Source of the DNA: a virus
Virus record (IMG/VR): IMGVR_UViG_3300017779_000144
Span: 1-24,409 of that record
Reading direction: 5' to 3' (one strand)
DNA length: 24,409 nucleotides
The notes under the pieces were generated by a model. It was not told the DNA's origin. It did no database searches and was given only the letters and a program-made list of their open reading frames with translations. A program made the translations under genes and the position numbers. Each line of letters starts with the position of its first letter. The stretch's first letter is position 1. Shown here one piece after another: positions 3,110-24,409 of this stretch.

Positions 3110-6100
3110 TGGCAGGAGAAAATTTAGATTTTAAAGTACGAGTATTAGGTATTAAAGAGCTTGTTGAATTAAACAATCAAATACAAGCCACCTCTAAGGA
3201 GTTAAAGGAAAAGAAGAAAGCTCTAAAGACAGACAAAGAAGGTCAACAGGAAAATATGAAGTCCGTTCTTCAGCTTACAGACACTTTAAAAAAGCAAAGA
3301 AAAGAGTTTAGAGAAGGAACTAAACAGCAGCAAAAAGTTCAACAAGAAACCAAAAAGACCACTAGCTTTACTATGAAGATGGCTACTGCTTTTGGGGTTG
3401 CTCAACTAGCTGTTAATGGTTTTCAAAAAGTTGTAGGCTTCCTTGCTAATCAAATGAAAGACGGTATAAATGTCTTTAAGGAGTTTGACTTTCAAATGCA
3501 GAAGGTTAGAGCTATTAGTGGTGCAACTGACTTGGAGTTTAAAAGACTAAAAGAATCTGCTGAAGCATTAGGTAGAACAACATTCTTTACTGCAACACAG
3601 GTAGCCGAGCTGCAAACAAACCTGTCTAAACTAGGTTTTACTGCCGAAGAAATACTACAAGCACAGGGTGCAACATTAGCAACTGCTACTGCAACAGGAG
3701 AGAACCTAGCAAGAACAGCAACGGTAATGGGTTCTGCTATACGAGGTTTTGGTCTTGATGCAAGTGAAGCAACAAGGGTTGCAGATGTTATGGCATCTGC
3801 CTTTACAAGTTCTGCACTAGATATTGAGAAGTTTCAAACATCAATGACAAAGGTTGCACCTATTGCAAAGATGGCAGGTTTTGAAATTGAAGGTACAACA
3901 GCGATATTAGCTTCCCTTACAGATGCAGGTATCGAAGCATCTATTGCAGGTACTTCTTTAAGAAACATATTATTAAGACTAGCAGACCCAACATCAAAAC
4001 TTTCTAAAAGATTAGGTGGCTCTGTAAAGTCTATTGATGAGCTTTTACCAAGACTAAAAGCTATGAAAGATGAGGGTATTGCTCTTTCTGATGTTTTAGG
4101 TATTACGGATAGAAGAACTGCTGCTGCTTTTGGTAGAATGTTAGATAGTGCAGACAATGTAGCTATCCTAACAGAGCAGCTAAGAAACTCTGAGGGTGCA
4201 GCAGAAGCTATGGCTGAAATTGTAGGAGATAGCTTACAAGGTGCTATGCTTCGTTTTAAGTCAGCGACAGACGGACTGAAGATTGCTTTAGTTGATTTGT
4301 TTGGAGAAAACTTACAAAAAAGATTTGATTCTTTTGCTAAGTTCTTTAATAATTTAGCTAGTGAAAAAAGCATAAAAAGAATATCAAAGTTTGCTAAGGC
4401 AATAGGCAACATAATAAAGGTTTTAGTTGTTTACACAATAGGAGTTAAGGCTACTGCTCTTGCTACTAATGTTCTTGCAGCAGCTACGCTTAGAGCAGGT
4501 GCAACACTATCAGGAACTTTTACAGCAGGTTTAGCTGTTGCAAAAAGTGGTTTATTAGCCTTCAGAGCAGCTATGATTTCAACAGGAGTCGGTGCTTTAG
4601 TTGTTGGTTTAGGTTTTCTTATTGCAAAACTATTTGAAACTAAAGAGGTAATAGGAGAATTGTTTAATGAGCAAGAGTTTTTAAATCAATCTCAAAAAAA
4701 TAGCAAGGAAAATATAGAGGGTGTATCTCAATCAACAACAGCTCTTATTAATCATAAAAAAGAATTAAACAAATTAACAGACGAAGAAGGAAATCTGTTA
4801 AACAAAAGTCAGCAGGGTCAAGCTATATATAATAAAAGATTACAGCTTTACAGAAAAGAGTTGGCTTCTGTAAACAAAGTTAATAAACAATACAATCAAA
4901 CGCTTTTAACTGAGAAAAGTAGTCTTGAAGATATTGCTGACGCAACAGATATTCTAATATCTAAAATGAAAGACAGAATGTTGCAGGAGAGCTTTGCATC
5001 TTTATCTAAAGAATATCTTGACCAAGCAGTAAGTGCTAATTTAATTTTAAGCGAGTTTGGAGAGGGTTTTAGCTTTACTGATAATGTTGAAAACGACCTT
5101 GAGATGGCTATTGCATTTATTAGAGAGTTTGATTACACTAAAGGCATTGAAGATGTAAGTCCACAGGTTTTAAGATTTGACCCTGAACAACTAGCTGCTG
5201 CAACATTAAATGATTTACTAAGGTCAAATGATATGGCTTTAGATGACTTTGAAGAAGCTGTTAAAGATGGTTTTTACGAAGAAAAAACAGGAAAGATTGC
5301 TGATGAGCTACAAAAGCAAATGAGTAGTGGCTCAAGTATATTTGGATTGCCAAAAAAAGAAGATAAAGACGACCCTAAAACAGAAGCTATTACTGCTAAA
5401 ATAGAAACAGAAGCTCAAAGACACTCTAAAGCATTGCTTGATATAGGCAATAAATCATACAAGTTTGAAAGTGATAGAAACATACTTCAGTTGGAAGAAG
5501 AAATAAAACATCTTGAAACTATGAAACTCCTTAATATGAAGATGGGAGAAGATGGTCTTAAAGAAGATTTAAAAATACAGAAAAAGCGTGATAAACTTTT
5601 AAAAGAAACTAACAAGCTAAAACTAGATGCTTTAAATCAAGAGAAGATAGATAGGAAACTTCAAATTGACGAGGACTTTGCTAATGAGCTTATGACAGAA
5701 CTTCAACACAAACAAGCATTGCTTGATTTAGAAGCGTGGTTCTTAGGTCAGAAGGGAGAGTTGATTGCACAAGATTTCCAAGCGTATTTAGAAAATCAAA
5801 ATGCTCAAAGGCAATTAGATATAGATGCAATAGAATTAGAAAAACAAGCAAATCAAGAAAGAATACAAGCTGTTGATGATTTAGGTTCTTCTATGTCTGA
5901 GCTTGGTAATATTATGGGAGAAAACCACGCACTTACAAAGATAGGTACTAAGTTATCACAAGCTGCTGCTGTTGCTAAAAATATAGAAAGATTACAGACT
6001 ATACTAAATAGCAAAGCAAATGAAGCAGATACCGTAACATCTTTAACTAAGGCAGGTGCAAATGCAGCAGAGGGTGCTACTGCACAAGCTAAACTTCCTT

Positions 6101-21775: not shown

Positions 21776-22092
21776 CAGACAAGAGTAAATACTATTATGA
21801 CTATACACGAAACTGCCATTGTGGTGGTGCTTGTTTATGCAGGAGGGTAGAAGAACAAAAAGAAGATATTTCTGTTCCTAGTTACTACATAGGTAACAAT
21901 GGATATGAAGCAAGGAAAGTTATAAGTGGATTTGATTTGTCGTACAACGTTGGAACTGCCACGACATACCTCTTGCGTTGTGGAAAGAAAACCGAACAAG
22001 GTATGACTGACAAAGAGAAGCATATCGAGGACATTGAGAAAGCTATGAATCATTTAAGGTTTGAACTAGAAAAGTTAAAAGATGAGTGTTAA
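21772..22092 (+). CDS. DUF3310 protein (T7 gp1.7-related family)
   Basis: 106 residues. An N-terminal Cys cluster (C15-x-C17-x3-C21-x-C23) precedes the DUF3310 core: GYEARKVISGFDLSYNVGTATTYLLRCGKK, then KHIEDIEKAMNHLRFEL. DUF3310 includes T7 gp1.7, a phage nucleotide kinase, so a role in nucleotide metabolism is possible. The Cys cluster could bind zinc and is not part of the core. It overlaps the VRR-NUC end by four bases and the HTH gene by 11. Confidence 0.7.
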   Translation: MTDKSKYYYDYTRNCHCGGACLCRRVEEQKEDISVPSYYIGNNGYEARKVISGFDLSYNVGTATTYLLRCGKKTEQGMTDKEKHIEDIEKAMNHLRFELEKLKDEC

Positions 22093-22279
22093 TCCATTTG
22101 AAAGAAAAGACCGTAGGGGTGGTGGCTATGCCAAGCGTAAGTTTACAATAGAAGAAGCAGATGCAATTCGTGAAGAATATAAAGCAGGAGGTGTAAGTCA
22201 AAATCAGTTGGCAGCTAGATATAATGTAAGTCAGCCTATAATAAATATGCTACTGAAAGGAAAAACTTATACGAAATAA
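22082..22279 (+). CDS. Small HTH DNA-binding protein
   Basis: 65 residues. RKFTIEEADAIREEYKAGG, then SQNQLAARYNVSQPIINMLLKG is a homeodomain-like/resolvase-type HTH (HTH_7 style) with a basic N-terminus (NPFERKDRRGGGYAKR). It is the last gene before a non-coding break and a new promoter, so it may regulate the next unit. No terminator is seen behind it. Confidence 0.6.
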   Translation: MSVNPFERKDRRGGGYAKRKFTIEEADAIREEYKAGGVSQNQLAARYNVSQPIINMLLKGKTYTK

Positions 22280-22280
22280 T

Positions 22281-22311
22281 TTGGAATTGTAATAAATTAT
22301 TTATATGTTTG
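22281..22311 (+). promoter_or_regulatory. Bacteroidota-type promoter upstream of G-rich leader
   Basis: TTG at 22281-22283, a 20-nt spacer and TATGTTTG at 22304-22311. The predicted transcription start (~22316-22318) lies just upstream of the four-tract G element, so that element would be in the 5' UTR of the 22417 gene. Confidence 0.7.
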
Positions 22312-22322
22312 CCTTGCAAATA

Positions 22323-22366
22323 GGGGGGAACTCAGGGGGTACACTAGGGGGTACACTAGGGGGGGG
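22323..22366 (+). promoter_or_regulatory. Potential G-quadruplex in 5' UTR
   Basis: Four G-runs of 6, 5, 5 and 8 (22323-22328, 22335-22339, 22347-22351, 22359-22366) are separated by loops of 6, 7 and 7 bases (AACTCA, TACACTA, TACACTA). It is the only such cluster I see in this AT-rich window. The repeated GGGGGTACACTA unit suggests recent tandem duplication. Confidence 0.65.
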
Positions 22367-22416
22367 TCTTATTGCAGAAACAACAAACATAAATAACCCA
22401 AAAAAAATATTACATT

Positions 22417-22743
22417 ATGAATTACGATAGTTGGAAATTAATGTCAGATAGAGATGAGATGAGTTATGCACCTGATGGATTAGATAAGTCAGATGTTGTT
22501 AGCTTCCTAAAGCAAGAGGGTGCTGATAATATAGATGTGATGGAAGGAGAAACAACCTGTGATGTTACCTTTGATTACGATGGTGCTTGGTATGTGTTAG
22601 AGGACTTATCGTTAGAAGATTTTGAAGTTATGTCAAACATAAAGGATATGATAGATATGTATGATGATACAGGTACTGCTTGTTGTGGTGCAGCTTATGA
22701 TAGCGACCACAGGAGATGTCATCATTGTAAAGAAGCGTTTTAA
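22417..22743 (+). CDS. Acidic protein with C-terminal zinc-knuckle-like motif
   Basis: 108 residues, very acidic (many Asp/Glu in SDVVSFLKQEGADNIDVMEGE and LEDLSLEDFEVM). The C-terminus has Cys89, Cys90, His98, Cys101 and Cys104 (TACCGAAYDSDHRRCHHCKEAF), a likely zinc-ribbon or knuckle. The ATG follows a leader with AATAACCC and a long A-run. It is alone in its transcript, with its own promoter and terminator and a G-quadruplex-capable leader. An acidic DNA mimic or an adaptor is conceivable; no family recognised. Confidence 0.65.
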   Translation: MNYDSWKLMSDRDEMSYAPDGLDKSDVVSFLKQEGADNIDVMEGETTCDVTFDYDGAWYVLEDLSLEDFEVMSNIKDMIDMYDDTGTACCGAAYDSDHRRCHHCKEAF

Positions 22744-22781
22744 TAGTACACACTTTGTTTTGTGTAATTGTGTTTTGTGTT

Positions 22782-22832
22782 AGATGAAGGGTGGGGGTTT
22801 TTTAGTTTGCCTCACTTTTCATCTTTTTTTTT
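22782..22832 (+). terminator. Intrinsic terminator after the acidic gene
   Basis: A 15-bp stem (22782-22796 with 22810-22824; outer AGATGAA with TTCATCT, inner pairs including three G-U wobbles) around a 13-nt loop is followed at once by T9. This is the strongest terminator in the window. Confidence 0.85.
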
Positions 22833-22885
22833 ATTTCTTTTCTTTTGTTTTTCAAATTGTATTTTTTCTGCTTTTTTAAACTTGT

Positions 22886-22951
22886 CAAGTAACTGCGAAG
22901 TAACTGCCAAGAAACTGTCAAGTAACTGCTAAGGAACTGCCAAATAACTGC
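22886..22951. repeat. Six contiguous 11-bp tandem repeats (iterons)
   Basis: Six adjoining units with consensus CAAGTAACTGC: 22886, 22897, 22908, 22919, 22930 and 22941. Units 1 and 4 are identical; the others differ from the consensus at one or two positions. The period is one helical turn and not a multiple of three, so this is not a coding repeat. Each unit would present the same face to a DNA-binding protein. Confidence 0.85.
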
Positions 22952-23003
22952 TGATGGTAGGGGTAGGGGTGTCCTGATGAGCCAAATTCTGTGTTGATAT
23001 TTT

Positions 23004-23126
23004 TTTTAAAAAAACATTATAAAATATTAGGATATTAAATTTATTTTATTATTTGCGTGTACTTATATAGCAAAACAAGTATCAAACTTTTTTACAATTA
23101 TTTTAAAAAAACATTAGGATATTAAA
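23004..23126. repeat. Direct repeat of AT-rich promoter-like segment
   Basis: TTTTAAAAAAACATTA plus GGATATTAAA occurs at 23101-23126 without a gap and at 23004-23039 with ten extra bases (23020-23029). Each is followed by a TTTG-type sequence; only the second has a full TAnnTTTG box. Confidence 0.65.
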
Positions 23127-23144
23127 AAAATAGTATTATGTTTG
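23114..23144 (+). promoter_or_regulatory. Promoter for right-end accessory genes
   Basis: TATGTTTG at 23137-23144 with TTAGG at 23114-23118, 20 bases between TTA and the -7 box. The TTA replaces the usual TTG, as it also seems to at 23814. ATG 23169 lies 24 bases downstream. Confidence 0.55.
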
Positions 23145-23168
23145 CAGTGAATTTAAAACTAAAACATT

Positions 23169-23465
23169 ATGAATACAACAGAAAACAACAAACTAATAGC
23201 AGAATTTATGGATTGGAAACAATGCGACCCTAACGACAACACTATCTATGCTAACCCTACAAATGGTGCGTTGCACTCAAGCGATAGCGATATGAGATTT
23301 CACACCTCTTGGGATTGGCTAATGCCTGTGATAAACAAGTGCCTTAACATCTATCACATAGAGCAAATGAATGATGATTTAAACTTTACTTTTTATGATG
23401 CAATGGGCAATATCGAAGAAACTTACCAAGCAGTAGTAGAATTTATCAATGAATATAACAAATAA
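23169..23465 (+). CDS. Conserved small phage/element protein (SWDWLMPV motif)
   Basis: 98 residues. NNKLIAEFMDWKQC, then FHTSWDWLMPVINKC and YQAVVEFINEYNK are the three conserved blocks of a small protein I recall as frequent in Bacteroidota phages and mobile elements; its function is unknown. It is acidic and has no membrane segment. The leader AAAACTAAAACATT resembles a shortened form of the leader repeated before the next three genes. Confidence 0.7.
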   Translation: MNTTENNKLIAEFMDWKQCDPNDNTIYANPTNGALHSSDSDMRFHTSWDWLMPVINKCLNIYHIEQMNDDLNFTFYDAMGNIEETYQAVVEFINEYNK

Positions 23466-23490: not shown

Positions 23491-23817
23491 ATGACAACAG
23501 AAATTAGAAACTACTCGTGGGAATACAAAGGAAATAATGATATAGTAATTTACGAACAATGCAAAGAAGATGAAAATACTTATAATTGTATATCACATAT
23601 AATAGAACAATTAAAACAAGAAAATAAAAACTTTATATTTCACTTAAAAAAAACAACAGAACAAAGAGGTGGGGGGTATATAAACGAGGTTTCGGTAGCT
23701 AAATCAAGAGCAATTAAAACACCTTTGCACCTATATTCTGAATGGAATATTAAAGTAAACAAATGTAATTCACTAGAGGAGATACAAACTTTATTAAAAA
23801 AAGATAAAAATAATTAG
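23491..23817 (+). CDS. Small accessory protein, unknown
   Basis: 108 residues from ATG 23491 (MTTEIRNYSWEYKGNN). A beta-looking N-terminus, a helix (CISHIIEQLKQENKNF), a GGGYINEVSVAKSRAI segment and a basic C-terminus (LLKKDKNN). No family recognised. The codons are the most A-rich of the window. It probably shares the transcript from 23137. Confidence 0.6.
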   Translation: MTTEIRNYSWEYKGNNDIVIYEQCKEDENTYNCISHIIEQLKQENKNFIFHLKKTTEQRGGGYINEVSVAKSRAIKTPLHLYSEWNIKVNKCNSLEEIQTLLKKDKNN

Positions 23818-24193: not shown

Positions 24194-24409
24194 ATGAAAG
24201 ATTTAATAGCAAATAATATTTTAAGGGAGAAGTATTCATCTAGGGGAGGGGGTATAGAAATTGACCTAACAGACTTTGGATATAATGGAGAAAAAATGAC
24301 TACATATCAAAACTATCTAGGTGGTGGTATGTTAGGTAGTGTAAACAACGATTGCACTATATCAGGATATTGGCAACACGACAACGACCTACAAGAAATA
24401 CAAAGAAAC
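24194..24409 (+). CDS. Accessory protein, unknown, 3' truncated by the window
   Basis: 72 codons without a stop (MKDLIANNILREKYSSRGGG ... DLQEIQRN). N-terminal helix, a Gly-rich turn, then beta-looking segments (IEIDLTDFGYNG, YLGGGMLGSVNNDCTISGYW). The start is supported by leader copy 3. No family recognised; the gene continues beyond the window. Confidence 0.6.
   Translation, partial: MKDLIANNILREKYSSRGGGIEIDLTDFGYNGEKMTTYQNYLGGGMLGSVNNDCTISGYWQHDNDLQEIQRN

Follow-up and report, generated by a model that had tools for sequence, protein, structure and literature searches.

A recurrent, G-quadruplex-prone G-tract array ahead of the last gene before a putative replication origin in uncultured marine phages

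What keeps a cluster of long G tracts in place at the predicted start of a transcript in an otherwise A/T-rich phage genome, and does it act on the gene that follows, on the DNA around it, or on nothing at all? The window (the whole 24,409-nt stretch of viral DNA analysed here) is an IMG/VR contig of a tailed phage, with genes for a ClpP-like head maturation protease, a portal protein, a DnaA-domain-IV protein and a VRR-NUC nuclease. The closest cultured matches of its large terminase are mainly marine Flavobacteriia phages (Croceibacter, Cellulophaga), and relatives of the phage have genomes of ~30-36 kb, mostly of positive GC skew; all main genes of G001 point in one direction. Gene order around the G tracts is VRR-NUC, a small gene with matches to phage 'nucleotide kinase' families, an HTH gene, a promoter or other small genes, the array, one of two genes (A or B), a terminator, 11-bp AACTG iterons and an A/T-rich region. 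The features of the window are collected in Table 1.

Table 1. Features in and around the G-tract array of the window
Feature	Position	Strand	Details
Bacteroidetes-type promoter	22280-22311	+	TTTG (22280, -33-like), N20, TATGTTTG as -7 box (22304-22311)
G-tract array	22323-22366	+	G6 22323-22328, G5 22335-22339, G5 22347-22351, G8 22359-22366; spacers 6, 7 and 7 nt; G-rich strand is RNA-like
Leader	22367-22416	+	A/T-rich, 50 nt, last G tract to start codon
Class A gene	22417-22743	+	acidic protein of 108 aa with a zinc-ribbon-like motif at its C terminus; no Pfam family
Likely intrinsic terminator	22783-22832	+	GATGAAGGGTGGGG / CCTCACTTTTCATC hairpin then T9, read from sequence
Six 11-bp direct repeats	22886-22951	+	CAAGTAACTGC; putative iterons / origin, neighbour of array

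The array reads G6-AACTCA-G5-TACACTA-G5-TACACTA-G8, with a period of 12 bp (TRF), so the four tracts and 6-7-base loops that an earlier note on this DNA had described are present exactly as claimed, and four tracts of at least three Gs with loops of 1-12 nt make the window allele G-quadruplex-capable. The A/T-rich surroundings that it had reported are equally evident: the window is ~34% GC, with a skew that is G-rich on the + strand, and its largest cluster of runs of five or more Gs (gaps ≤12) holds four runs, against a mean of 1.0 and a maximum of 2 when the whole window was shuffled 300 times with dinucleotides preserved; none of the shuffles matched the array. Searches for known counterparts gave nothing near threshold in Rfam across 21900-23300 and zero DNA matches for the region against 50,697 phage records.

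The first G tract starts 11 nt past the -7 box of a sequence with the form of a Bacteroidetes promoter, and the pattern TTTG-N17-21-TAnnTTTG occurs four times in the window against 0.67 expected. Mapping in Flavobacterium johnsoniae assigns position -5 to the final G of the -7 box (PMC6847099), from which +1 is predicted at 22316, the first tract at +8 and the whole array at +8 to +51 of the leader on the RNA-like strand. The F. johnsoniae promoter set has the consensus TAHHTTTG, with G at -9 almost absent (PMC6847099), and TATGTTTG carries exactly this disfavoured G, so the 5' end is a prediction only. Of the consensus promoter that had been claimed ahead of the tracts, the TTTG-N20-TATGTTTG arrangement thus stands, with an atypical G at -9 and a -33 box that is a weak criterion for calling a promoter. 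As for the claimed acidic zinc-knuckle gene behind the array, the reading frame is D/E-rich, ends in a zinc-ribbon-like CC..C..C motif, and is taken as real because it is conserved. Its AlphaFold model is of moderate confidence (pLDDT 68) and gave no match with E below 0.001 in the PDB.

Beyond this gene, terminator-like hairpins occur at the equivalent place in L044 and L067. The direct repeats, lying between terminator and A/T-rich region, are likely an iteron origin or a regulatory site of this phage group; relatives carrying gene B have the iteron unit GAAACTGCCCT in place of CAAGTAACTGC. A second tract array follows just past the iterons, as G tracts (GGTAGGGGTAGGGGTG) at 22957-22972 in the window and as C tracts (CCCCCTCCCCTCCCCTCCCCTCC) in class B (L044, 6676-6698), and several small genes near the putative origin (window 23664-23680, 24240-24256 and 22116-22130) share an RGGGY/RGGGI peptide in G-rich coding sequence.

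The array is a real, recurrent and conserved element of a group of uncultured marine phages. Among 55 VRR-NUC-anchored loci with enough downstream sequence from related ~34-kb phages, 45 carry it at the matching site, always with the G-rich strand RNA-like. Loci reaching the region yield 35 distinct arrays of two to five tracts of at least four Gs (up to G10), counts that are not independent because the phages are related. Four GGG with spacers of 1-12 nt are available in 31 of the 35 and cannot be drawn from the other four, 9 of 12 three-tract arrays include one tract of at least seven Gs, and the spacers have turned over into many different sequences. Two families supply the next gene, one the acidic zinc-ribbon proteins (class A, down to 33% identity), the other unrelated to it (class B, down to 28% identity), the WYL_2 Sm-like SH3 proteins (PF10902), and in every class seen the last G lies 48-75 nt from the core start codon. 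Four loci (L125-L128) have gene B and no G tracts, and in L027 the last gene is neither A nor B. A-family homologues located elsewhere (L155-L157, L171-L181) have neither the array nor an AACTG iteron cluster, three of the nearest cultured phages by TerL (Croceibacter phages P2559Y and P2559S, Cellulophaga phage phi17:1) are without such arrays, and gene B found no relative in the host genomes searched. The G4-capable element that the earlier note proposed at the start of an mRNA is predicted for the window, but such a position is unsupported as a general rule, since many class B relatives have their tracts within an operon, as codons.

The arrays also change between close relatives. L145 is 399/400 identical to the window downstream and has one 12-bp unit and one G fewer, and in three further pairs (L146/L151, L149/L150 and L138/L139) one G run differs by one base. 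The suggestion that tract number can change is therefore upheld in that whole GGGGGTACACTA units and single Gs differ, as seen between close lineages only, which falls short of true phase variation. Homopolymer-tract contingency loci likewise differ in run length and unit number among close relatives, and the array departs from them in that its differences are seen between lineages only.

Predicted folds differ among the alleles. With the quadruplex energies of ViennaRNA, which are crude for tracts of G5-G8, the window leader folds at -46.7 kcal/mol with a G-quadruplex and at -17.5 kcal/mol without, a gain of 29 kcal/mol. Gains are similar or large in L152, L111, L129, L134, L136 and L160, and in seven other alleles (L146, L082, L112, L115, L122, L053 and L143) the quadruplex term adds nothing over hairpins. 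An intramolecular G-quadruplex as a universal fold is not supported, given these hairpin predictions and the four arrays without four GGG; what the models safely allow is that G-rich segments with strong structure are common and that most alleles, not all, are likely to form a four-tract G-quadruplex.

On what the array does, the balance is about even for a transcribed, G-quadruplex- and R-loop-prone cis element that tunes expression of the next gene. Such a cis-acting element would lie where the last gene before the terminator and putative replication origin begins. As the polymerase leaves the promoter, or crosses the operon, the non-template strand that it displaces would fold, together with the nascent RNA, into a G-quadruplex, replaced in short alleles by a G-rich hairpin or hybrid structure. 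With the core start codon 48-75 nt further on, the structure would set the output of the small gene, tract number and length acting as a drifting dial whose effect might be either enhancing or repressing; in class B the tracts flank an upstream in-frame AUG and could restrict its use. We favour action on the gene because the array travels with whichever gene start, A or B, it precedes, keeps its spacing and is oriented on the non-template strand, and its occurrence ahead of two unrelated families supports the same view. In known systems, a non-template PQS 43 bp upstream of an RBS raises translation and an R-loop-coupled G4 raises transcription (PMC11087576), and initiation in Flavobacterium is tuned by how the mRNA is structured around the start codon (PMC6847099). 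Engineered 5'UTR G4 enhancers and R-loop-coupled G4s (Lee et al. 2024, PMC11087576; Lee et al. 2020, cited therein) resemble the array in having a non-template PQS past the promoter and tens of nucleotides upstream of the start region, the class A geometry being close to the E. coli versions. The engineered leaders are T7/E. coli constructs with a ribosome binding site, whereas the array is natural, belongs to Bacteroidetes-type phages without SD, has tracts of 4-10 Gs and in class A starts at about +8. Counting against a G4 leader are the tract-free gene B loci L125-L128, the seven alleles without a quadruplex gain, the four arrays short of four GGG and the disfavoured G at -9 in the window's predicted promoter.

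The array also often coincides with mosaic boundaries, so its position alone is no proof of gene regulation. It might instead be a recombination seam, in which fragile, microhomology-rich tracts, broken at DNA G4s or R-loops and annealed by phage recombination proteins, allow small gene cassettes to be swapped upstream of a conserved gene-terminator-iteron block, any effect on expression being incidental. We regard this as unlikely. In its favour, class B pairs sharing 94-98% identity from the element onwards can be unrelated over the ~200 bp that precede it, with similarity resuming in the HTH gene; class B is attached at the tracts to a number of distinct upstream contexts, tract number varies among near-identical genomes, and the phage encodes a VRR-NUC nuclease. 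However, whole-gene exchange would put a junction at the gene start anyway, the left edge of the swapped cassette showed no G tracts, and the four-GGG capacity of class A leaders joined to a promoter would be left unexplained. The pilE G4 of Neisseria gonorrhoeae, which acts in the antigenic variation of a single gene, is a counterpart as a genomic G4 tied to local recombination (PMC10094033), a tie that is putative for the array, and no donor repertoire is known here.

An origin-linked role, as an R-loop primer or a polar G4 block to forks at the adjacent iteron origin, is more doubtful still. AACTG iterons lie downstream in all 45 array loci, usually about 410-545 bp beyond the array, a fork moving leftward would meet the G tracts on its leading-strand template, and the skew of the whole genomes is compatible with one-way replication. 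Mitochondrial CSB II and ColE1 RNA II are G-rich R-loop primers, and the array shares with them clustered Gs, RNA-like in strand, close to a candidate origin; unlike in those systems, a terminator stands between the array, or its transcript, and the iterons, and the array is missing from some relatives whose iterons are in place (five of the 55 anchored loci, and also L027, with its different last gene, and L126). An array that served only the origin would accompany it always, and such relatives disfavour a role of this kind; a reading of the array as part of the iteron origin is countered by L027 and L125-L128.

Slightly less probable again is a protein-binding G-box array, with a phage or host DNA- or RNA-binding protein recognising repeated TAGGGGGTA-like units. 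Short, A/T-rich spacers in which TA often flanks the tracts (ATAA, TACACTA, TACTA) would suit this, as would the gene for a small HTH protein immediately upstream, but the tracts are 1 to 12 nt apart, follow no helical phase and are separated by unconserved sequence.

The class B arrays, where the tracts are written in codons, bear on whether a peptide or the nucleic acid is kept. Members of the main class B clade have an uninterrupted frame that runs across the tracts and into WYL_2 (for example ATG GGG GAT ATA GGG GGT ATA GGG GGG TAC TTC GAT), and in the 57 nt past the last tract the variable columns take in 15 of the 19 third positions against 7 and 7 at the other two, both as would suit tracts that encode a glycine-rich N-terminus (MGDIGGIGGYFDTP.. 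and similar) or, in class A, a leader peptide. Codon choice within the tracts is nevertheless far from genome usage: GGG makes up 55 of 78 glycine codons compared with 5% genome-wide, all 23 Lys/Arg codons preceding GGN are AAG or AGG, and 258 Gs stand in runs of at least four, against a mean of 20.8 and a maximum of 65 in 5000 simulations that recoded the stretch synonymously at the codon frequencies of these phages. No conserved frame runs through the arrays of class A or of distant class B, and single-G length changes among close relatives break any frame, which makes the peptide explanation very improbable. A class A leader ORF (ATGGGGG...) was rejected on the same ground, the window having lost its ATG, and a hairpin past the last class B tract that looked covariant by eye was dropped because the stretch is coding and about half of its variants break the pairing.

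Since the G-run property is held in both non-coding and coding settings, the peptide is not the thing kept, and the codon comparison points to selection, or a mutational process, acting on the G tracts themselves; a local process that makes G runs could stand in for selection in this test. To judge from the sequences, the array is most likely kept at the nucleic-acid level, as a folded, G-quadruplex-prone control element. That the array is an artefact of sequencing or assembly, or has drifted neutrally as a homopolymer, is scarcely credible, as independent contigs from many samples carry the array at the same place with different spacers and the codon usage is far from neutral expectation, even though several contigs (L070, L088 and L158) end at the array. 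These ends fit hard-to-assemble sequence and make exact run lengths uncertain. In one contig, L159, the array position is taken up by GC-rich, junk-like sequence at the very start (1-60), and two loci fetched from a single contig (L080/L165) end on either side of the array, ~10 bp apart, which suggests a stretch that the assembly did not resolve.

To our knowledge, evidence for selected G-quadruplex motifs in phages has usually been statistical only. Here non-coding leaders retain one motif that relatives also retain within codons, despite a strong A+T bias, and the natural tract-number variants and natural losses are ready-made controls, so that a promoter-proximal G4 role in SD-less Bacteroidetes becomes directly testable. 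G4 leaders are known in kind; what is new is the setting and the strength of the evolutionary evidence. A fuller reading of the gene-acting element, tentative and well short of an even chance, is that of a natural phage-encoded expression dial, in which a co-transcriptional R-loop/G-quadruplex in the first nucleotides of the transcript would be maintained by selection overriding codon usage, its strength reset by gain or loss of G-tract units as the phages diverge.

Similar tract clusters were also seen elsewhere. A scan of all viral contigs for a promoter with two G tracts found similar leaders in at least three unrelated AT-rich contigs, L232, L223 and L233 being among the matches listed, too few for a wider class to be claimed. 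At the start of the VRR-NUC gene, one lineage (L107, reverse strand, about 2620-2660; also L138) has a G-tract array, GGGGGGTACAAAGGGGGGTACTCCACAGGGGGG, lying within two overlapping ORFs and read as GGY.. and GGT.. repeats in both frames. In L204, an unrelated AT-rich phage contig, positions 3235-3330 hold six G tracts (G5-G9) as Gly/Arg/Lys codons of a small ORF, followed by GTGAAACTGCC.
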